Assembly (NCBI GenBank): GCA_018004935.1
Contig: JAGNBF010000068.1
Span: 1-41,903, forward strand
DNA length: 41,903 bases
Direction of reading: 5' to 3'
Origin: Chloroflexota bacterium
GTDB lineage: Bacteria > Chloroflexota > Anaerolineae > Promineifilales > Promineifilaceae
Part shown: piece by piece, positions 5,603-34,201 of the stretch
How positions within the stretch are numbered: position 1 is the stretch's first letter
Layout: every line of letters starts with the position of its first letter
Notes under the pieces: model-generated
Databases searched by the model: none
Seen by the model: only the letters and a program-made list of their open reading frames with translations
What the model was told of the DNA's origin: nothing
Position numbers and translations under genes: made by a program

Positions 5603-6469
5603 ATGATTGATTCGACCGCGTTTGACGCCTTCGCCTCTGACTACGATGATAGCTTTACCCATTCGCAACTGGGGCAATGGCTGCGGCCGCGTGTCTGGCA
5701 ACACCTATCACGTCATTTCCAACCGGGCGACCACATCCTGGAGCTGGCTTGCGGCACAGGCGAAGACGCCCTCTGGCTGGCCCAACACGGCCTCCACATC
5801 ACCGCCACCGATGGTTCACCGGAAATGGTCAAAGTCGCGGCCGCGAAAGCCGCCCACGCTGGTCTGAGTGATAAAGTTCAGGTATACCAGCTTTCACTTC
5901 AGGAGTTGAGTGAGCAGTTAGCAGTGACCAGTGACCAGTCACCGGTTCACAATTCACAATTCACAATTCACAATTCACAATTCCTCAGTCTTCCCATCTC
6001 CCCCCCCTTCTCCGGCATCCTCTCCAACTTCGGCGGCCTCAACACCATCGAGGATTTGCGGCCGCTGGCTCAAGCCTTAGCGCCGCTCATAAAACCTGGC
6101 GGCAAGGCCGTGCTTGTGCCGATGGGGCCGGTTTGCCCCTGGGAACTGGCCTGGTACGGTCTGCATGGGGATATGAAGCGGGCGCTGAGAAGGTTTCGCG
6201 GCCGCGCCGAAGCCCACATCGGCCCCACCACCATCCCCATCTGGTATCCCTCCGCCCGGCAGATACGGCAAGCCTTTTCCCCCTGGTTCCGCCAGGTCAA
6301 AACCGAAAGCCTGGGCTTCTTTCTCCCCCCTAGCTACCTGGAACACCTTGTCCACCGCTGGCCCCGCCTGTTCCGCGCCCTTAACCGCCTCGACCAAACC
6401 ACCGCCCGGTTGTGGCGCGGCTGGGGCGATCATTTCATCCTCATCCTGGAAAAGATAGATATTCCCTAA
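5603..6469 (+). CDS. Class I SAM-dependent methyltransferase
   Basis: A 288-residue protein. The SAM-binding motif I is ILELACGTGEDALWLAQHG (about residues 48-66), with the acidic end of strand 2 in ITATDGSPEMVKVA. SGILSNFGGLN is the motif IV region, so the fold is complete. The start was set at the ATG at 5603; the frame continues upstream to 5468 but only through repeats. About 30 residues in the middle (QLAVTSDQSPVHNSQFTIHN and on) are encoded by a tandem 7-8 bp repeat inserted between motifs II and IV, which is absent in typical members. It is probably a flexible loop. Possible substrates are small molecules or lipids; none can be named. Confidence 0.8.
   Translation: MIDSTAFDAFASDYDDSFTHSQLGQWLRPRVWQHLSRHFQPGDHILELACGTGEDALWLAQHGLHITATDGSPEMVKVAAAKAAHAGLSDKVQVYQLSLQELSEQLAVTSDQSPVHNSQFTIHNSQFLSLPISPPFSGILSNFGGLNTIEDLRPLAQALAPLIKPGGKAVLVPMGPVCPWELAWYGLHGDMKRALRRFRGRAEAHIGPTTIPIWYPSARQIRQAFSPWFRQVKTESLGFFLPPSYLEHLVHRWPRLFRALNRLDQTTARLWRGWGDHFILILEKIDIP
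5918..5983 (+). repeat. In-frame tandem repeat inside the methyltransferase gene
   Basis: The sequence CAGTGACCAGTGACCAGTCA is followed by about five units of a 7-8 bp CACAATT motif. It looks like the simple repeats found between genes in this window, but it keeps the reading frame and encodes SQFTIHNSQF-like residues. Confidence 0.7.
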
Positions 6470-6481
6470 GGAACGCGGATC

Positions 6482-6545
6482 AAATAACCTACGGACTGCT
6501 GTAATCGGTCTCCTGACCGTGCCACTTTCGATAAGCAGGTTATTT
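6482..6545. mobile_element. MITE-like element of the GGTCTCC family
   Basis: A 64-bp element with perfect 9-bp terminal inverted repeats AAATAACCT (6482-6490) and AGGTTATTT (6537-6545). Its core has the GGTC-TCCT-GACC hairpin and CGTGCCA shared with elements near 6690, 15020, 16890, 21590, 22140, 30505 and 39371. No coding capacity. Confidence 0.55.
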
Positions 6546-6689
6546 AATGTCCATTCCTGAGGATTCAGAAGCGCACCCTTACATACCAACCATCCCTCGA
6601 CGATCCTCGTTCATGGGTAAAACGGCTCCTTACCGTGGGGTGCAAAAACAGATCCGGCATTAAACTGAACCGTATACAATTAGCCATCG

Positions 6690-6784
6690 CTTAGGACTTA
6701 TGGGCTGTGGCGGTGTCCGCACCGAACCACAACGAGCACGGCCAGGAGACCAGCCACCCAACTTAATCTTGAGCGAATCCTAAG
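6690..6784. mobile_element. MITE-like element of the GGTCTCC family
   Basis: A 95-bp segment bounded by CTTAGGA (6690-6696) and TCCTAAG (6778-6784). It contains GGCTGTGGCGGTGTCC and, near its far end, CAGGAGACCAGCCACC followed by AACTTAATC. The last part matches, inverted, the start of the element at 21590. Terminal repeats are short, so the limits are approximate. Confidence 0.4.
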
Positions 6785-6837
6785 AGCCTGCGGCCGCACC
6801 AGGCCCGCCCTGAGCTTGCCGAAGGGATGGAAGAAAA

Positions 6838-6896
6838 CAGCGAGTGGGGAGTAGCGAGTAGGAACGCCCACTCGCTACCCGCCTACTCGCAAACTT
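6838..6896. repeat. Inverted tandem microsatellite hairpin (GCGAGTAG type, second copy)
   Basis: GCGAGTGGGGAGTAGCGAGT is followed after a few bases by ACTCGCTACCCGCCTACTCG. The unit is the same as at 1866 but the arrangement is different. It directly precedes the leader cassette at 6903. Confidence 0.6.
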
Positions 6897-6902
6897 ATTT
6901 TC

Positions 6903-7019
6903 GCAGGAGTTCCCCATGGGCCTACAGCGCACCAAGGGGAATGAAAATTTGTAGGACGATTTTGTAAATCGTCCACTAGGCGATTTACAAAATCGCCCTA
7001 CATTTTCGTAGGAGTTATC
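6903..7019 (+). promoter_or_regulatory. Leader cassette, type I, upstream of a lipoprotein gene
   Basis: Begins with a ribosome site (CAGGAG, 6904-6909) and an ATG at 6916 that opens a 12-codon frame reading MGLQRTKGNENL, stop at 6952-6954. A hairpin follows with 22-bp arms (6950-6971 and 6981-7002, one mismatch). The unit ends in TTTTCGTAGGAGTTATC, the ribosome site of the real gene at 7020. The same layout recurs elsewhere in this window, including an inverted copy at 27376-27490. The leader frame and the downstream ribosome site suggest translation-coupled control, but this is inference. Confidence 0.65.
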
Positions 7020-8291
7020 ATGTTGGAACGTAAACAGGTTTTCTGGGGGATTTTTATCGCTTTTCTCTGCCTGATAGTAGCTTGCACGGTGGATGAGCCA
7101 CTGTTTGAGCCGGGGACGGGGGATGAGGGGCGGACACCCGCGGCCGCAAACACACCCCCACCCCCCACCTTCCCACCCACACCGTCCCCCACCTTCAACC
7201 CAGCCATCGCCACCCCATTCCCCTCTTCCCTGGACGAGATTTCCCTGACCGCCACCAGCGCAATGGCGACCCAACACCCCGAACTGGTTCCCACCGGCCC
7301 GGTTACACCCACCCCTGTGCCTCCATCCCCCGGCATCGTTTACACTAGCGAAACCGGCCTCTGGCAAATCGGTGGTGATTGGCAACCACGCCTGCTATCC
7401 CCTTTTGCCCAGGCCAGGCTCTCACCCGACAACACCCGGCTGGTTTATGCCGACCAGGGCGACCTCTGGCTCACCACCCTGGCCGATGGCCTCACCACCC
7501 AGCTAACCAACACCCCTGATCACCTGGAGCAATATCCGCAATGGTGGGCGGCTCAACCGGATATTCTCCTTTTTCAAAGCCTGCCTCTGGCCGAATCCCA
7601 AGACACCCAGGCTGGGGGCTATCTATCAGCGATGAGTTTGAGTGAAGGCTGGTTGACCCAGCTAGACCGGGATGAGATGTCGGGGAGAGAGTTTGCCCCC
7701 TCACCCAATGGTTTACACATCGCCTACAACCGGGGCGGCGAACCCTGGCTTTACCATTGGGATTTGGAATTAGCCGAGCCGTTCCATGAGGATGCGTATG
7801 TGGGTAGTCAGGCTGTGACCTGGGCGCGGTTGGGTTCACCATCCTGGTCAGCTGATGGCAACAAGGTAGCCTGGATGGTTAAAGTGCAGGGGGAGGCATT
7901 CCCGGCTCTTGACGGGAGTGGGCAGGCCGCGGCCGCAATCTTTGACATGAGCAATTCCACTTTTACCGTCCTACACCCTTATGATAACCTGGGGCGTGGC
8001 GGTTGGTTCGCGGCCGCGGTCTGGAGTCCCGATAATCAATGGCTGGCCTTCGTGGCTGAAGATGTAGACCCGGCCCGATATGGTGTCTGGGTGGTCAAAA
8101 CAGATGGCAGTGAAGAGCATTACCTGGGGCCAGGAGCGGATCCTGTCTGGAGTCCTGATGGCCTCTGGCTGGCCTTTGCCAAACCGGGCGATACTCAAGG
8201 TGTTACATCCCGGCTGGTGGAAACAGCCAGTTGGTATGTGCTCAATCTGTTTGTCTATGACGACGGGTTGATTGTGGCTTGGCGACGCTGA
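7020..8291 (+). CDS. Lipoprotein with TolB-like beta-propeller
   Basis: A 423-residue lipoprotein. The signal peptide ends in the lipobox LIVAC, giving a lipidated Cys at about residue 22. A Thr/Pro-rich linker (residues 38-105, TPTPVPPSPG at its end) lifts the folded part off the membrane. From residue 108 there are repeated blade-like units with the WD40/PD40 pattern of TolB (LSPDNTRLVYA, PSWSADGNKVAW, VWSPDNQWLAFV, VWSPDGLWLAFA). Such propellers bind proteins or glycans at the cell surface. It is a tandem paralogue of the next gene, 25 bp away. The start is fixed by the TAGGAG site of the leader cassette. The ligand is unknown. Confidence 0.85.
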   Translation: MLERKQVFWGIFIAFLCLIVACTVDEPLFEPGTGDEGRTPAAANTPPPPTFPPTPSPTFNPAIATPFPSSLDEISLTATSAMATQHPELVPTGPVTPTPVPPSPGIVYTSETGLWQIGGDWQPRLLSPFAQARLSPDNTRLVYADQGDLWLTTLADGLTTQLTNTPDHLEQYPQWWAAQPDILLFQSLPLAESQDTQAGGYLSAMSLSEGWLTQLDRDEMSGREFAPSPNGLHIAYNRGGEPWLYHWDLELAEPFHEDAYVGSQAVTWARLGSPSWSADGNKVAWMVKVQGEAFPALDGSGQAAAAIFDMSNSTFTVLHPYDNLGRGGWFAAAVWSPDNQWLAFVAEDVDPARYGVWVVKTDGSEEHYLGPGADPVWSPDGLWLAFAKPGDTQGVTSRLVETASWYVLNLFVYDDGLIVAWRR

Positions 8292-8316
8292 GAATAACGG
8301 ATAAGGTGGAACAACG

Positions 8317-9531
8317 ATGAATAAACATACTTCCCTCGCTCCCTGGTTCATGCTATTCGTGACTGGCTGGTTGGTAGGGTGCACGGCCGCAACGCCCACA
8401 CCGGTTGTACAGGTGACAATGACGAACACGGTTGCGGCCGCGACCGCCACACCCATTCACACCTTCACCCCCTCCTTACCTCTTTCACCAACGCCAACCT
8501 TAATCCCTTCATCACCACCACCCATTGAACCGACTCCTACGTTATCCCCGGCAACTCCCTTACCTGGTATGATTTTTCTGGCCGATGGCGTGTGGCAAAT
8601 CGGAGCAGATGGCCAACCGTTTTGGGTAGGCGAGCACTTTATTCCCCCTGATACGATTTCCCCTGATGGAACGAAACTCCTTTTTGTTGCCAGGGATGAT
8701 ATCTGGATACGTAACTTAGCGACGGGCCAGGAACAAAATCTTACCAAGACTCCAGATCAGTCTGAACACAGTCCTGTCTGGTGGCCGGTTCATGAGGGAG
8801 TTATCTTATTTCAGTTTGACACAATTCCTTCCCAATCAGAATTAAGCAATCGGGGGTATCAAGTCATTTTTAATGTCCATGAAAGTGTTATGATCTGGCA
8901 AGAGCAAGAAGAACCCGCTTACGGCAGGTTTGCGGCCGCGCCCAATGGTCAAACCTTATTCTATGATCGACGGGGTGTGCCTTATGTTTATGATTGGGAT
9001 ACAGCTACATCGTCCGCGTTTGATGTATGGGAATACAAATTACCCGATGAGATTGTCATACCCCGTCTCATGTCACCTGCCTGGTCCCCTGATGGACAGA
9101 AGATCGCCTGGATTGTGGACACACAACCGGTTGGGCGTCCTTCGCCATTGAACGCTATCTTAATATTGGATAACACCTCTCAAACGGGTACTATCTTGCA
9201 TCCCTATGAAGAAATGGGGCGTGGTCGCTGGTTCGATCCGCCTTTGTGGAGTCCTGATGGAGAATGGGTCTCCTTCTGGGTAGAAGATGTGACCAGTGGC
9301 GTAGCCACATGGGTTATTAAGGTGGATGGAAGTAAGGAATATGATTTGGGTCTTGCTTACAATCTGGTCTGGCAACCCAATGGGCAGAAACTAGCCTTCA
9401 ACCGTTTAATTACCCCGAATGAACGATCATCCTGGTTGTTAGATGTAACGACTGGAATTGAACATAACCTGCTGGTTGACGGGAACGGTATTGTCATTGC
9501 CTGGGAGCCAGAGGAGAAAAAAGGACCATAG
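8317..9531 (+). CDS. Lipoprotein with TolB-like beta-propeller (paralogue)
   Basis: A 404-residue lipoprotein with lipobox LVGC (Cys about residue 22) and a Thr/Pro linker (residues 23-82). Its propeller aligns along its length with the previous gene. Matching blocks are VWQIGADGQPFW, TISPDGTKLLFV, NLTKTPDQSEHSPVWW, PAWSPDGQKIAW and LWSPDGEWVSFW. Lower GC and more varied codons than its neighbour suggest an older split with independent drift. It starts 25 bp after the previous stop, with AAGGTGG as a modest ribosome site, so the two are probably one operon. Ligand unknown; external face of the membrane. Confidence 0.85.
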   Translation: MNKHTSLAPWFMLFVTGWLVGCTAATPTPVVQVTMTNTVAAATATPIHTFTPSLPLSPTPTLIPSSPPPIEPTPTLSPATPLPGMIFLADGVWQIGADGQPFWVGEHFIPPDTISPDGTKLLFVARDDIWIRNLATGQEQNLTKTPDQSEHSPVWWPVHEGVILFQFDTIPSQSELSNRGYQVIFNVHESVMIWQEQEEPAYGRFAAAPNGQTLFYDRRGVPYVYDWDTATSSAFDVWEYKLPDEIVIPRLMSPAWSPDGQKIAWIVDTQPVGRPSPLNAILILDNTSQTGTILHPYEEMGRGRWFDPPLWSPDGEWVSFWVEDVTSGVATWVIKVDGSKEYDLGLAYNLVWQPNGQKLAFNRLITPNERSSWLLDVTTGIEHNLLVDGNGIVIAWEPEEKKGP

Positions 9532-9580
9532 GAACTCAGGGGAACTCACCTTGTCATCTTGTCACCTTGTCATTTCCACA

Positions 9581-9940
9581 GGAGTTCCCCATGGGCCTAC
9601 GGCGCACCAAGAGGGATGAAAATCTGTAGGACGATTTGGTAAAGGGTGTGTTTCATTTCGGTTGAGTCGTAGGGGCGGGGCAACCGGGGGAAATATTGAC
9701 TGATCACCCCAACGTGTTCTCCCGGTTGCCTCGCCCACCTGCCCCACCAAGGCCTTGTCTGCTACCAGGGTGAGCCAGGTGGGAGATGAGGCCAGGGTGA
9801 AAAGATGAGGCCAACCCCACCTGTCCCACCCCTACCCATTGTGACAATTGAGCATAGCTGTTATTCAACTCATTTGAAACACACCCTTTGGTAAATCGTC
9901 CGGGCGATTTGCCAAATCGCCCTACATTTTCGTAGGAGTT
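9581..9940 (+). promoter_or_regulatory. Leader cassette, type I, split by a MITE
   Basis: The unit starts with ACAGGAGTTCCCC and the ATG at 9591. The 12-codon frame reads MGLRRTKRDENL and stops at 9627-9629. The hairpin begins at 9626 but is broken at 9643 by the 243-bp element at 9644-9886. It resumes after the duplicated TTTGGTAAA at 9887-9895 and ends with TTTTCGTAGGAGTT at about 9929-9940. Confidence 0.6.
9644..9886. mobile_element. MITE with 12-bp inverted repeats and 9-bp target duplication
   Basis: A 243-bp non-coding element. The ends are GGGTGTGTTTCA (9644-9655) and TGAAACACACCC (9875-9886), perfect 12-bp inverted repeats whose similarity extends further inward. It is flanked by the 9-bp direct repeat TTTGGTAAA (9635-9643 and 9887-9895). 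Removing the element and one repeat restores the hairpin of the leader cassette. The interior has a GC-rich inverted repeat around GGCAACCGGGGGA and TCTCCCGGTTGCC. No transposase is present, so movement would need one elsewhere. Confidence 0.8.
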
Positions 9941-10174
9941 CCCCATGAACACGTCGCTCACCAAGATGGACGAAAATAACGCCACCATTTTCATCCCCAT
10001 CCGTGTTCATTCCTATCCGTGTTTCCATTAGCAGTGGCTATTTTCGCAGGAGACAACATGAACGGGGTTCACCAGAGGTGATGAAAATTTATCCGCCGAT
10101 TTTCACCCTTTATCCGTGTTTCTTCATATCCGTGTTTCTTCATATCAGTGGCTATTTTCACAGGAGTATTGATT
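9931..10174 (+). promoter_or_regulatory. Stacked leader cassettes, type II, upstream of a lipoprotein gene
   Basis: Two further units follow head to tail. The first has TAGGAG and an ATG at 9945 opening a 28-codon frame (MNTSLTKMDEN at its start, stop 10029-10031). It runs into repeated ATCCGTGTT motifs and TGGCTATTTTCGCAGGAG. The second has an ATG at 10058 and a degenerate frame, MNGVHQR, stop at 10079-10081, then again ATCCGTGTTTC and TGGCTATTTTCACAGGAG. That last ribosome site serves the real start at 10175. Confidence 0.6.
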
Positions 10175-11620
10175 ATGATCCGTCAGTTGAAAGGGTTGTT
10201 ATGGATGCTCGTCCTGATGTTGGTTGCCTGCACCCCCAACGATCAGGTTGAGCCAACGGTGGTTGTGCCGACTGTCGCGGCCGCAACCTTACCCCCCACA
10301 CCCACCTTAGCCGCTACCCTGGCAACCGGAGCCACCGCCACACCCCAACCACTCCCCCCCACGCCGGAGCCAGTTGCCACCGAGGAACCCCGCTCCACCC
10401 CCACCAGCGAAATACCAGTTCCGGTGGAAGCGTATTCGCAGTTGTTGCAAATGTATATTACTTTGCCCGCGGCCGCGCCCGAACCCCCGCCCATCTGGCA
10501 AAAGGACAACAATGTCCTCAACCAATACATCCTGGCCGTCACCAACACCCTCAACTTCACCCAGGCCAACCCCGAAGCCTTCCGCGCCCAGGTACTCACC
10601 TGGGGGCCGCTCACCAACCCCGACACCCCCGCCCAATACACCTGGCTTCACTCTGCTGACCTGGACAACGACGGCACAAACGAACTGCTGGCCCGCGTAC
10701 CACAACTGACGGACAACGGTTTATTTTGTGATTTCGGCTTCTGCGCTGGTATGGTCATCCTCTTTGAACCGGTTGGCTCGCTCTACGTACCGGAATACGC
10801 CTTCCCCGGCGACCCCGAATTCCAAAATGGCTGGCTCGATAACCCCATCGTCTATCAGGTGGTAGATTTGAACAGCGATGGGCTGTTTGAATTAATCCTG
10901 CAACAGGAGATGTGTGGAGCGCATACCTGCTACCAGACATTGCTTATCGGCCATTGGGATGGGCAAACCTGGCAAAATATGGTCGGAGCCACCCCCATCA
11001 ACCAGAGTTACAGCACCATCGTCCTGGAAGACCGGGATGGGGACGGCCTGACCGATATCGCCATGACCGGCGGGGCGGTGGGTTCGGTGGGTGGCGGGTT
11101 GCAACGGGCACACACCCTGGTTTTTTCTCTGCAAAACGGCCTGTACGAACTGGCGCAAGACATCCCCCTGCCCGATCCCCATCCCTACTACCTGATGATG
11201 GACGCCTACTACGCCTTAAAGGCCAACGATCCGGCCACCGCCGAACTGTTAGCCAATCAGGTGTTAGCCCTGACACCTGCTCAATTGGCCGAATCTATGC
11301 TGATGGACCCAGTAGCCCAGGTGCGTGTGCCCACCTACGCGGCGATTGAGTTGATGCTGGTGTATGCTTTGCGGGGAAATGGGGCCAGCATCCAGGCGTT
11401 GCTCCCCACATTGGCCCCATACGACACCGGGGACAATCCTTACCTCGCGGCCGCAACCCTCTTCGCCGATACCTATGCCCAAACGGGCGACGCGGCCGCA
11501 TCGTGCCAGGCCATGTCCGCCGTCATCACCGCTCTCCCCCCCGAACAAACCCAATTCTTCGAGTGGGTAGGCTACAACACAGAGTTGATTCCCGTAGGAG
11601 AGATTTGTCCGTTGCCATAG
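10175..11620 (+). CDS. Lipoprotein with VCBS/FG-GAP-like calcium repeats
   Basis: A 481-residue lipoprotein. The signal peptide has lipobox LVAC (Cys about residue 20), followed by a Thr/Pro linker up to residue 85. Three Asp-rich motifs (DLDNDGTNELL, DLNSDGLFELIL, DRDGDGLTDIAMT) match the calcium-binding loops of VCBS/FG-GAP repeats, which build beta-propellers. The last 130 residues are helical (AYYALKANDPATAELLANQV, ALRGNGASIQALLPTLAPY) and resemble tetratricopeptide helices. The ATG at 10175 was preferred to 10148 because CAGGAG lies ten bases before it and the lipobox then has normal spacing. It probably binds a partner at the cell surface. Confidence 0.8.
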   Translation: MIRQLKGLLWMLVLMLVACTPNDQVEPTVVVPTVAAATLPPTPTLAATLATGATATPQPLPPTPEPVATEEPRSTPTSEIPVPVEAYSQLLQMYITLPAAAPEPPPIWQKDNNVLNQYILAVTNTLNFTQANPEAFRAQVLTWGPLTNPDTPAQYTWLHSADLDNDGTNELLARVPQLTDNGLFCDFGFCAGMVILFEPVGSLYVPEYAFPGDPEFQNGWLDNPIVYQVVDLNSDGLFELILQQEMCGAHTCYQTLLIGHWDGQTWQNMVGATPINQSYSTIVLEDRDGDGLTDIAMTGGAVGSVGGGLQRAHTLVFSLQNGLYELAQDIPLPDPHPYYLMMDAYYALKANDPATAELLANQVLALTPAQLAESMLMDPVAQVRVPTYAAIELMLVYALRGNGASIQALLPTLAPYDTGDNPYLAAATLFADTYAQTGDAAASCQAMSAVITALPPEQTQFFEWVGYNTELIPVGEICPLP

Positions 11621-30586: not shown

Positions 30587-32260
30587 CTAATCTTCATGCT
30601 CAATCAAAATAACCGGGCGGCCGCCAATGGCATACAACGTCGGATCCCAGGGGGCATTCAGATTGGTGGCGGCAGGTAAGGGGAAGGTGTAGACCCCATT
30701 GGTGGGTGTGATGGTCTCTGTAATACCGTCTGGGTAAACAAGCAAAGCCGTACTGCTGGTTGCCGTGATGACCGCCGTTTGCGCGTCGCCAAAACGTGCC
30801 CACATTCCCACAATCCGATTACCGGTGCTGGGCTGGTAAAAGGCGATCCACTCTTGCGGCCCATTCGCGGGATCAGAGCCACCGGGACGCAACCGCCAAT
30901 AAGGTTCTACATCCCGAAAATAGGTCGTCAGTACCTGATAGGCAGTCATCGTGGGGCGAGGTGTTTCTGGCTGGGGGTGCTGGCGGAAACAGGCCGCATC
31001 GCTGGGGTTGCGATACAGGCCAAAGGCATCCCCAGCACAAATGGGATATTGGGGTAATCCGCATAACTCGCCATTGTGGGGCGGAAAATCAGTACCGCCT
31101 GGTTGGTTGCCACAGGCATCATACAACTGGAAATGGAAAATCGCCGTTGCCCCGGCGTAGGTACCATAAAAAGCATTTTGGATGACAAAGTCGGCGGCTT
31201 CGCTCATGGTGGCCCGGTAAGGACTGGTAGATTCCCATGTTGGCCCCGGATAATCATCCCAGATGACGACGCCACTCTCGTTAAGCCACACCGGTTTGTC
31301 TTGACCATGGGCCTGTTGGGTATTTTTGGCCCGGAAAATGTGATACCAGGTACGCCAGGCATAAAAATAGTTGTGAGTAGCCAGAATGTCGTGGAAATAG
31401 CCATAGGTAGGGGCCAGGGTATCGCCATCATAAATATCTAATACCTCATCATAATAGCCCAGATGACCACTATCATTAGCCAGCCCCCCAAATAAGATTT
31501 GCGCCAGGGAATCGGCCTGGCGGGCGGCCAGGTAGCCTACTTTGAGCAGGCGAGCATAATCGGCTACACTGCCGCTCCAAAAAGACGCCAGATCGGGTTC
31601 GTTCCACATTTCCCAATGGGTGATGCCCACGCCTACCGGCCACCCCTCAGCCTGGGCGACAACGCCACCCGGTTTGTAACGATTTACGGCTGTGTAAACG
31701 AATCTGGCCCAGACGTTGTTGGGGTTAATTGTTTTGCCTGGGCCAGGGATGTCACTGCCATCGGTGAAGATGGGATCGTACAGGCCGATGGGGGTGCTGG
31801 CCTGGGGGGCGTTGAGGGCGAGGGCTGAAGTTGTTGCGGCCGCGGTTGGGGTGGCTTGCGTGAGGGTGGTATAGAAGCCAGGTGTGCCCAAGAGAATGGC
31901 GTTGATGTGGAAGCCGTGCGCCAGGTCGGCAATGGCGGCCTCATCCTGGAAGGCCCAACTGAATTGGCCGGGGGTTTGTTCGATATGATTCCAATACAGG
32001 GGCCAGCGATCCCATTGTGCTCCGGTGATTTGGGCATTGGCGAGTTGTTGGGCATCGGCGCGGCCCTCGGCGGAGTTGATGAAGGTGATGCCGTAAGCTG
32101 GCACGGCGGTGGAAGGGGGGAAGGTGCTATCTCGACCTAACAGGGATAGATAGGTGGGGGTGTTGTCATTTGCGGCCGCGCCTGCCCGGCCAATGAGTAT
32201 CACCACAACCAGGAAAGCGGTGAGCCAGGTAAAAAGGAGAAACAGTCGTTTTGGGATCAT
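30587..32260 (-). CDS. Secreted clan-A glycoside hydrolase
   Basis: A 557-residue exported protein. The N-terminal hydrophobic segment (LFLLFTWLTAFLVVVILIG) is a signal peptide or anchor. The TIM-barrel core has WEMWNEPD with the likely acid/base Glu221 and VWLNESG with the likely nucleophile Glu328, as in clan A families such as GH5 and GH39. HWEMWNEPDLASFWSG fits GH39-like enzymes best. The C-terminal 90 residues look like a beta domain. I chose the ATG at 32260, which gives a normal signal length; the frame extends to 32293. It is likely to act on plant- or microbe-derived glycans outside the cell. Exact family uncertain. Confidence 0.8.
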   Translation of the reverse strand: MIPKRLFLLFTWLTAFLVVVILIGRAGAAANDNTPTYLSLLGRDSTFPPSTAVPAYGITFINSAEGRADAQQLANAQITGAQWDRWPLYWNHIEQTPGQFSWAFQDEAAIADLAHGFHINAILLGTPGFYTTLTQATPTAAATTSALALNAPQASTPIGLYDPIFTDGSDIPGPGKTINPNNVWARFVYTAVNRYKPGGVVAQAEGWPVGVGITHWEMWNEPDLASFWSGSVADYARLLKVGYLAARQADSLAQILFGGLANDSGHLGYYDEVLDIYDGDTLAPTYGYFHDILATHNYFYAWRTWYHIFRAKNTQQAHGQDKPVWLNESGVVIWDDYPGPTWESTSPYRATMSEAADFVIQNAFYGTYAGATAIFHFQLYDACGNQPGGTDFPPHNGELCGLPQYPICAGDAFGLYRNPSDAACFRQHPQPETPRPTMTAYQVLTTYFRDVEPYWRLRPGGSDPANGPQEWIAFYQPSTGNRIVGMWARFGDAQTAVITATSSTALLVYPDGITETITPTNGVYTFPLPAATNLNAPWDPTLYAIGGRPVILIEHED

Positions 32261-32291
32261 AGCAGTACCTATAAAGCGGGCGTCAGACAAC

Positions 32292-32329
32292 AAAAAGACC
32301 CGACGCGGCCGCGTGGCCTGCCGGGTCTT
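32292..32329 (-). terminator. Intrinsic terminator of the SPFH operon
   Basis: On the minus strand AAGACCCG (32322-32329) pairs with CGGGTCTT (32295-32302), which runs into a T run (32292-32296). The loop holds GCGGCCGC (32305-32312). It isolates the SPFH gene pair from the glycosidase gene. Confidence 0.7.
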
Positions 32330-32356: not shown

Positions 32357-33469
32357 TTACCCGGCCAGGAATTGGTCTAGAGCGGCTTTAGAAATACGGT
32401 AGGATGGGCCGATTTTGCGGGCCTTGAGATCACCTGCTTCAATGGCGGCGACAACGTCCGATTCGCTGACTTGCAGAATGACGGCGGCTTGAGCGGGCGT
32501 CATGACATCCGGTGAGGCTCCGGCCCCGGTTGAGGGGGCGGGGGTGGGAGATGGCTGTTGGGCGGCGGCTTGTTGGGCCGCGGCCGCGGCCGCGGCCGCG
32601 GCCTGTTGTTGCATCATCTGTTGCTGTTGCATCATCTGCTGTTGCATCATCTGTTGTTGCATCGCTGACATGCCCATCATGCCCATACCGGTTTCAGCCA
32701 AACCACCACCAGAGGTATTTTGCGCGGCCGCCATACCTACATCCAATGTTTTCATTTGGGCATAGCTGGTGCCATAACCCATCCGGGTCACAATTTCCAA
32801 TGAATTGGGGTGCAAACCCAGGCGGATGTTAAAGTCCACCAATACCATACCAATGGCGTCGAATTCGGGCTGGAGTAAACCTACCAGCAGTTCATTCAAA
32901 TCTTTGGAGAATGATTGCACCTGCGCCGGGCTGAGTTGTTTGGCGTTAATCAATTCACTCAGTTTGTCCTGGAGCATCACTCCCAACATCGGGTCAAGGC
33001 GGTCTTTTAGTTGGGGCAGGCGCACACTTTCGCGCAGGGCGTCCATTGCTTGCAGGAAGCGCCACGGATCCTTCACCTTAGAGACATACGTGCCATTACC
33101 GACGATAGCATAAGCACCGGCGGCGGTGTTAGGGCTTTCCGCGATAATAGGTTGAGCGGTTCCCCATTTGAAGGTCATATCGGCGGCTTTGAGGTAATAA
33201 ACATCGGCCGTGAACACATTGGCCCCACCAAACAACCCTTTTTCTAAGAGGTCGGTGAGCCAGGGGATATTGGCCGTGGTAAGGACATGGGTTCCTGGTT
33301 GGAAAGTCCCAAGCGCCTTGCCGCCCCGCACGAAGACGGCCATTTCATTCGGATTAACAATACAAGGGGAGCCTAGTTTGATGTCGCCCAGGCCACCCTG
33401 GGGGAATTTACGCACAATTTCATCATTTAACCAGGACTCAATCGCCACACGATCAAACACTTTTGCCAT
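32357..33469 (-). CDS. SPFH-domain protein fused to a helix-turn-helix of the excisionase type
   Basis: A 370-residue protein. The first 240 residues form an SPFH/band-7 domain of the virion-core-protein (YdjI-like) type (NPNEMAVFVRGGKALGTFQP, PEFDAIGMVLVDFNIRLGL), which oligomerises on membranes as a scaffold. Then come a Met/Gln-rich block (QQQMMQQQMMQQQQMM), nine Ala residues encoded partly by three overlapping octamers (32580-32599) and a Pro/Thr linker. The last 50 residues are a small DNA-binding domain (VMTPAQAAVILQVSESDVVA, AGDLKARKIGPSYRISKAAL) like HTH_17/excisionase proteins. YdjI-like members usually end in a zinc ribbon, so this fusion is unusual. It lies 25 bp after its partner gene. 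Confidence 0.82.
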   Translation of the reverse strand: MAKVFDRVAIESWLNDEIVRKFPQGGLGDIKLGSPCIVNPNEMAVFVRGGKALGTFQPGTHVLTTANIPWLTDLLEKGLFGGANVFTADVYYLKAADMTFKWGTAQPIIAESPNTAAGAYAIVGNGTYVSKVKDPWRFLQAMDALRESVRLPQLKDRLDPMLGVMLQDKLSELINAKQLSPAQVQSFSKDLNELLVGLLQPEFDAIGMVLVDFNIRLGLHPNSLEIVTRMGYGTSYAQMKTLDVGMAAAQNTSGGGLAETGMGMMGMSAMQQQMMQQQMMQQQQMMQQQAAAAAAAAAQQAAAQQPSPTPAPSTGAGASPDVMTPAQAAVILQVSESDVVAAIEAGDLKARKIGPSYRISKAALDQFLAG

Positions 33470-33494
33470 GATGTCTCTCCTTGAGAACAGATGA

Positions 33495-34037
33495 TCAGGC
33501 TACGCCTGAAAGAATTTCTTGTCGGGAACCGAAGGTGTTATTAGCGTCTTGGACGGTACGATCCAGTTCGCGAATGGCCTGACCGACATTACCGCCGTCA
33601 TTGACGGCTTTATAGATGGCGGCTACACCGGTAGCGATCTGGTCGGCAAAGGCGGTCATGTTGTTGTCAAATTCATAAACGCGTGCCAGTTCGTCTTCGT
33701 TGACTTTAACGGCATCAAAAAAGCCCGCATACCCCTGGGGGGCATCTTTGATTTTGCCAATGAGACCCATGAGGCGGTTATCAATACGACCCAGGGGTTC
33801 GGCGTGGTCAATAGCCAGGAGAATATCACGGCTGAGTTCTTCATGGACACTGGAAAGTTCCAGACGGGTTGCTTCCAGACGGTCAGAGAGGGTGCGACGC
33901 AAAATTTCGTCGGCTTCACGGCGGCGACTTTTTTCCATGTAGCCACTAAACCCAGGAATTTTGCTGGCGATTTTACCCAGGAAAGTGGATTCGTCCTGGA
34001 TTTTCTCGTACATGTCAGGAACTGAGGAATCTTTCAT
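33495..34037 (-). CDS. Helical partner of the SPFH protein, function unknown
   Basis: A 180-residue, charged, mainly helical protein. SVPDMYEKIQDESTFLGKIA, GFSGYMEKSRRREADEILRR and RLELSSVHEELSRDILLAID predict long helices, possibly coiled coils. No membrane segment or catalytic motif is seen. The ATG at 34037 has TAAGGAG nine bases upstream, which rules out the longer frame to 34055. The gene is first in a two-gene operon with the SPFH protein, with a 25-bp gap containing its ribosome site. By position it is a likely binding partner or stator of the SPFH ring. I do not recognise the family. Confidence 0.7.
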   Translation of the reverse strand: MKDSSVPDMYEKIQDESTFLGKIASKIPGFSGYMEKSRRREADEILRRTLSDRLEATRLELSSVHEELSRDILLAIDHAEPLGRIDNRLMGLIGKIKDAPQGYAGFFDAVKVNEDELARVYEFDNNMTAFADQIATGVAAIYKAVNDGGNVGQAIRELDRTVQDANNTFGSRQEILSGVA

Positions 34038-34192: not shown

Positions 34193-34201
34193 AGTATAAC
34201 A
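34193..34201 (-). promoter_or_regulatory. Possible extended -10 promoter of the SPFH operon
   Basis: TGTTATACT on the minus strand fits TGn-TATAAT with one mismatch. No -35 box stands out. It would give a leader of about 150 nt in front of the gene at 34037. The region is AT-rich compared with its surroundings. Confidence 0.3.

Follow-up and report, generated by a model that had tools for sequence, protein, structure and literature searches.

A conserved operon pairing a helical protein with an SPFH protein whose winged-helix tail has lost most of its DNA-contacting residues

Here we present a two-gene operon from a Chloroflexota genome, encoding a small helical protein, HEL, and an SPFH protein that ends in a winged helix of the HTH_17 family. 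Comparison across genomes established that the HEL-SPFH pair is real and old. The reading that we favor, at a probability of about 0.6, is that the pair makes up a PspA-like envelope-maintenance scaffold, with HEL as its client or partner and with the winged helix repurposed for assembly or docking.

Background

In B. subtilis, the SPFH protein YdjI, which carries a zinc finger, is soluble and needs the membrane proteins YdjG and YdjH for its membrane localisation, and it is itself required for the recruitment of PspA to the membrane and for PspA foci (PMC8581546). PspA-band-7-ZnR-TPM operons have been catalogued in a review (PMC11237479). Eberhardt et al. (2013, PMC3581485) connect the small SHOCT domain, which most often follows Band_7_1, with oligomeric proteins. 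The literature searched held no paper on SPFH proteins with an excisionase or HTH_17 domain, and none on DUF2207 with band 7.

Results

Organization of the operon

The window, meaning the whole stretch of 41,903 nt that was analysed, belongs to a 229-contig assembly that is 96.6% complete with 3.1% contamination. The operon occupies 34037-32357 on the minus strand, with HEL as the first gene and SPFH as the second; the two ORFs are on the same strand, separated by 25 nt, and each is preceded by a Shine-Dalgarno-like GGAGA. The features, in window coordinates, are the following:

34193..34201, minus strand: extended -10-like element TGtTATACT, putative promoter (from sequence)
33495..34037, minus strand: HEL, 180 aa, all-helical, ATG at 34037, stop included (ORF; NF047596-like; AlphaFold2)
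32357..33469, minus strand: SPFH protein, 370 aa, ATG at 33469 (ORF; Band_7_1 and HTH_17; AlphaFold2 model)
32813..33385, minus strand: SPFH/Band_7_1 domain, approximately residues 29-219 (Pfam PF13421, E 1.3e-24)
32510..32713, minus strand: low-complexity linker of Gly, then a Met/Gln tract, then poly-Ala and Pro/Ser/Gly, approximately residues 253-320 (sequence and composition)
32360..32506, minus strand: C-terminal winged helix (HTH_17) with the acidic recognition helix SESDVVAAIEAG (PF12728, BldC superposition)
32291..32329, minus strand: intrinsic terminator, stem-loop 32295-32329 followed by a U tract (folding energy)

The initial annotation had taken the operon for a transcription unit of its own, with its own terminator and a possible promoter. 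The unit is supported, and the terminator is a strong hairpin of -26.1 kcal/mol (z -3.8), with none of 200 shuffled sequences being as stable. As to the promoter, the extended -10-like element is present in the sequence, but it stays unproven as the promoter of the operon because a scan for the sigma-70 consensus calls no minus-strand site at 34193-34201. Beyond the terminator, at 30587-32293, lies a gene whose product resembles a secreted glycosidase and weakly matches glycoside hydrolase family 39 (E 0.016).

Conservation of the gene pair

HEL is present in 43 of 301 Chloroflexota genomes, namely in 35 of the 38 sampled from the window's class and in 8 of the 263 others; it is single-copy in the window genome, and no relative of it was found on viral contigs. 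Gene neighborhoods were compared at 111 HEL loci, chosen by the presence of HEL and with close relatives included. In 90 of these the gene directly downstream is SPFH, its start being 1-327 nt away (median 44.5 nt), and in other lineages, comprising genomes related to a non-Chloroflexota MAG labelled Bacillota, it lies directly or nearly directly downstream at 23 of 25 full-length HEL loci. Adjacency of the two genes is thus the rule, and the possibility raised at the outset, that they would prove to be rarely adjacent, was not borne out. Nine Chloroflexota genomes have no SPFH gene near HEL; seven of them encode a Band_7_1 protein elsewhere, and all seven of these proteins have the winged-helix tail. 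At two loci, L060 and L061 (genomes G029 and G121), distant relatives of HEL are followed by a different gene, and HEL may have another partner in these genomes because neither has a Band_7_1 match.

Many relatives have the pair within a four-gene operon, which encodes a DUF2207 membrane protein, a protein with two transmembrane segments (2-TM) and a zinc ribbon, HEL and SPFH. The 2-TM protein, with its zinc ribbon at the C-terminus, is encoded immediately upstream of HEL at roughly half of the 111 loci; at roughly a third, its gene is itself preceded by that of the DUF2207 protein, which matches PF09972 (E 3.7e-17) and PF20990 (E 2e-46). The four-gene operon is ancestral and the pair in the window would be a streamlined form. 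Neither membrane gene was found in the 96.6% complete window genome, so the membrane receptors proposed below would be missing or replaced there. In some close relatives of the window (L067, L068, L070, L071 and L075), the upstream 2-TM/zinc-ribbon protein is a two-helix stub of 64-111 residues, as if the gene were being lost stepwise.

Genes for metabolic enzymes also occur next to the pair. In Anaerolineae relatives (L034 at 5980-10710, L036, L041, L042, L044, L037 and others), CO/xanthine-dehydrogenase genes follow HEL on the same strand, in the order FAD/2Fe-2S subunit, membrane protein of ~140 aa with no Pfam match and large molybdenum subunit; the SPFH gene of L037 follows ~5 kb downstream. 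At 15 loci, including L047 and L055, the genes that come after HEL-SPFH, in the same orientation, are sucC and sucD of succinyl-CoA synthetase.

HEL, a four-helix bundle

HEL had been described initially as a helical protein of 180 residues that could not be identified. The helical character is upheld by the AlphaFold2 model, a four-helix bundle with a pLDDT of 87, and an identification can now be offered: HEL aligns over its full length with the NCBIfam model NF047596, the "LIMLP_15305 family" of Leptospira (E 5e-9), at 36.3 bits against a curated cut-off of 210, which makes it a distant relative of that family rather than a member. LIMLP_15305 is mentioned once in the literature, in a table of peroxide-induced non-coding RNAs with no function given, and the literature searched contained neither a function for NF047596 nor experiments on HEL. 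Two motifs are conserved in HEL, one near the N-terminus (IPGFxGYxExxxRRxADKLLR) and one in mid-protein (GYAGFFDAVKxxExEL).

Searches for kinship with solved structures, using Foldseek and VIA-align against the PDB, gave generic helix bundles only. The best match, IncA (6e6a; Foldseek E 0.013, Z 13.0, 140 residues), is no evidence of kinship because HEL is itself a helical bundle, and a sequence search of the PDB with the HEL profile returned coiled-coil noise only. PspA was considered and rejected as an identity for HEL: hhalign gave a probability of 0.6% against PspA of related genomes, there was no match to PspA_IM30, and the predicted bundle differs from the extended hairpin of PspA. Two true PspA genes are located elsewhere in the window genome.

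The SPFH core and its linker

The initial description of the second protein as an SPFH domain with a Met/Gln and Ala linker was accurate. The match to PF13421 (Band_7_1) scores 87.4 bits against a cut-off of 24, placing the protein in this family, and residues 263-320 of the linker contain 17 Gln, 10 Met and 16 Ala. The AlphaFold2 model, made from 37 aligned sequences, consists of the SPFH fold, a long helix and the C-terminal winged helix, with a pLDDT of ~43-73 in the linker; on structure comparison of this model, the nearest solved folds to the core are flotillin, HflK/C, prohibitin and stomatin. No transmembrane stretch was found in either the SPFH protein or HEL of the window.

Compared with the other SPFH proteins linked to HEL, the SPFH core of the window family (32813-33385) has a very long branch (~2 changes per site), and its Band_7_1 E-values drop off to ~1e-24 from the ~1e-60 of these others. 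The DNA of the poly-Ala tract (32582-32603) is a near-perfect repeat of GGCCGC. Read on the opposite strand, it scores like a terminator hairpin, and it is possibly a hotspot for slippage or structure.

A winged helix without its DNA-reading face

The C-terminal tail had been identified at the outset as an excisionase-type, HTH_17-like domain, and this assignment holds. Residues 322-369 match HTH_17 (PF12728) with an E-value of 1.7e-10 and 41.4 bits, above the cut-off of 27 for the family, and the tail also matches the excisionase model TIGR01764, "excise" (E 3.8e-9, 36.8 bits against a cut-off of 28.8). AlphaFold2 models residues 321-370 as a winged helix (pLDDT 95-97), and the modelled tail superimposes on DNA-bound BldC (6amk) over 50 residues with an rmsd of 1.1 and a Z of 9.1, giving it the same fold as the DNA binders BldC, Pukovnik Xis and RdfS.

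Unlike these proteins, the tail lacks the DNA contacts of the recognition helix and most of those of the wing, is acidic in the recognition helix and is fused to an SPFH scaffold. In an alignment-based comparison, the recognition helix carried a mean charge of -3.15 (-5 to -2) in 71 SPFH tails and of +1.5 (0 to 3) in 26 HTH_17 domains from other proteins in the same or related genomes, with no overlap. The DNA-contacting residues of BldC, taken from PMC5859096 and with the sequence checked against 6ama, provide a finer measure. R30 of BldC, where replacement by Ala essentially abolishes DNA binding, as does H46E (PMC5859096), corresponds to Ala in 64 of the 71 tails and to Arg or Lys in none, whereas 22 of the 26 other domains have Arg or Lys there. 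At the position of T27 there is an Asp in 70 of 71 tails, and at that of K33 a Glu in 39 of 71; K26 is mostly Glu, W31 and the wing residue H46 are mostly Ala, and T29 is also replaced. The basic recognition helix with a base-contacting Arg that is expected of an HTH_17 DNA binder is therefore absent from the SPFH tails. The one BldC contact that is invariant among them is R48, in the wing, where there are also several basic residues (KARKIG). To judge from these residues, the winged helix has probably ceased to read DNA, and the suggestion of the initial annotation that it tethers DNA or a regulator is not supported. Weak non-specific DNA binding is possible, given the Arg48 and KARKIG of the wing and the avidity that SPFH rings might contribute.

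Exchange of the tail domain

Related SPFH proteins encoded in the same operon have, at the position of the winged helix, double zinc ribbons, a SHOCT-like helical hairpin or a winged helix. The term SHOCT-like reflects the sequence pattern, since Pfam does not call SHOCT on the Chloroflexota tail tested. On a tree of the SPFH core (100 rows), at least six changes among the three tail states were found, where the minimum possible is two; some branches are long, making the exact counts unsure. A zinc ribbon or other non-DNA-binding fold had been named in advance as the result that would speak against DNA tethering, and the outcome is divided, with a winged helix-turn-helix in the window's clade and a zinc ribbon in relatives. 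The SPFH-SHOCT proteins (PMC3581485) likewise join a Band_7_1 core to a small C-terminal domain that can be exchanged; unlike them, the window protein has a winged helix as its tail and is preceded by the gene of a dedicated helical partner. Since the fold has been kept while its DNA-reading face has been erased, and since it is exchanged with zinc ribbons and SHOCT-like hairpins, the tail is probably a protein-joining module, or protein-binding adaptor, rather than a DNA binder.

Discussion

The closest parallel to HEL-SPFH is the B. subtilis pspA-ydjG-ydjH-ydjI operon. Both systems have a soluble SPFH protein of the Band_7 type with a low-complexity linker and a small C-terminal domain, both encode a cytosolic helical protein in the SPFH operon, and in relatives the cluster also includes two membrane-protein genes, the product of one bearing a zinc ribbon and that of the other a Gly-rich C-terminus. 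There are differences as well: HEL takes the place of PspA with no detectable homology to it, DUF2207 occupies the place of the TPM domain of YdjH, the tail of YdjI is a zinc ribbon where the window's clade has a winged helix, and the window genome lacks both membrane genes that many relatives have. Given the hhalign result and the dissimilarity of the HEL bundle to the PspA hairpin, the analogy with PspA is one of genomic position. On this analogy, envelope maintenance is the most likely role of HEL-SPFH. At the inner membrane, the SPFH protein would assemble into rings or patches, and HEL, as its dedicated client or partner, would be concentrated there by it. The tail, on its flexible Gln/Met/Ala linker, would act as the exchangeable adaptor, and the winged helix would join proteins, either by head-to-tail packing of tails in the manner of BldC and Xis, extending the scaffold, or by docking HEL or a membrane receptor. 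The fuller proposal, that HEL-SPFH is a membrane-maintenance system independent of PspA, in which an unrelated helix bundle fills the PspA slot and a former DNA-binding winged helix has become the adaptor for protein assembly in Anaerolineae-type Chloroflexota, recalling the ESCRT-II winged helices, is more tentative, and we consider it less likely than not.

A more specific form of the favored reading, which we regard as possible but doubtful, would make the winged helix a DNA-free polymerisation module, stacking head-to-tail so that SPFH rings are strung into arrays. It would in this way fill the oligomerising role that has been suggested for SHOCT, and HEL would cap or regulate the assembly. 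RdfS forms head-to-tail oligomers without DNA (PMC11963761), SHOCT is linked to oligomeric proteins (PMC3581485) and has a look-alike at the same place in relatives, and interface positions 21, 23 and 44 of BldC are still hydrophobic in the tails (Leu, Val or Gly). However, ordinary HTH_17 proteins have Leu at 21 and Val or Ile at 23 just as often, the interface residues W31 and I40 have become Ala and Arg/Lys in the tails, and the salt-bridge pair of BldC is conserved only in part, R22 being mostly Gln or Lys.

That the SPFH scaffold instead holds chromosomal or promoter DNA at the membrane through an excisionase-type winged helix is unlikely in our estimation. The tail is truly HTH_17 by fold and sequence family, its relatives BldC, Xis and RdfS are DNA binders that often assemble head-to-tail and use indirect readout, and its basic wing with an invariant Arg, aided by ring avidity, could offset weak contacts; against this, its recognition helix is strongly acidic, all BldC helix contacts (K26, T27, T29, R30, W31 and K33) are replaced together with H46 of the wing, and homologous scaffolds have zinc ribbons or SHOCT-like tails instead. 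Slightly less probable still is a quality-control or assembly-chaperone role for membrane-associated metabolic enzymes in place of general envelope stress. Such a role would account for the 16 loci at which HEL is followed by FAD and molybdenum subunits of the CO/xanthine-dehydrogenase type, with the small membrane protein between them, and for the 15 with succinyl-CoA synthetase genes, but these contexts are lineage-restricted and the HEL-SPFH pair is constant across lineages.

Conclusions

For genome annotation, the automatic label "excisionase family DNA-binding" is probably misleading for this subfamily of SPFH tails. If the envelope-maintenance reading is correct, HEL would be a widely distributed and apparently undescribed partner in the SPFH/PspA envelope-stress field, the tail would be an example of an HTH_17 domain that is no longer tied to DNA, and the two-gene system of the window, without membrane receptors, would be a compact model of client recruitment by an SPFH scaffold.
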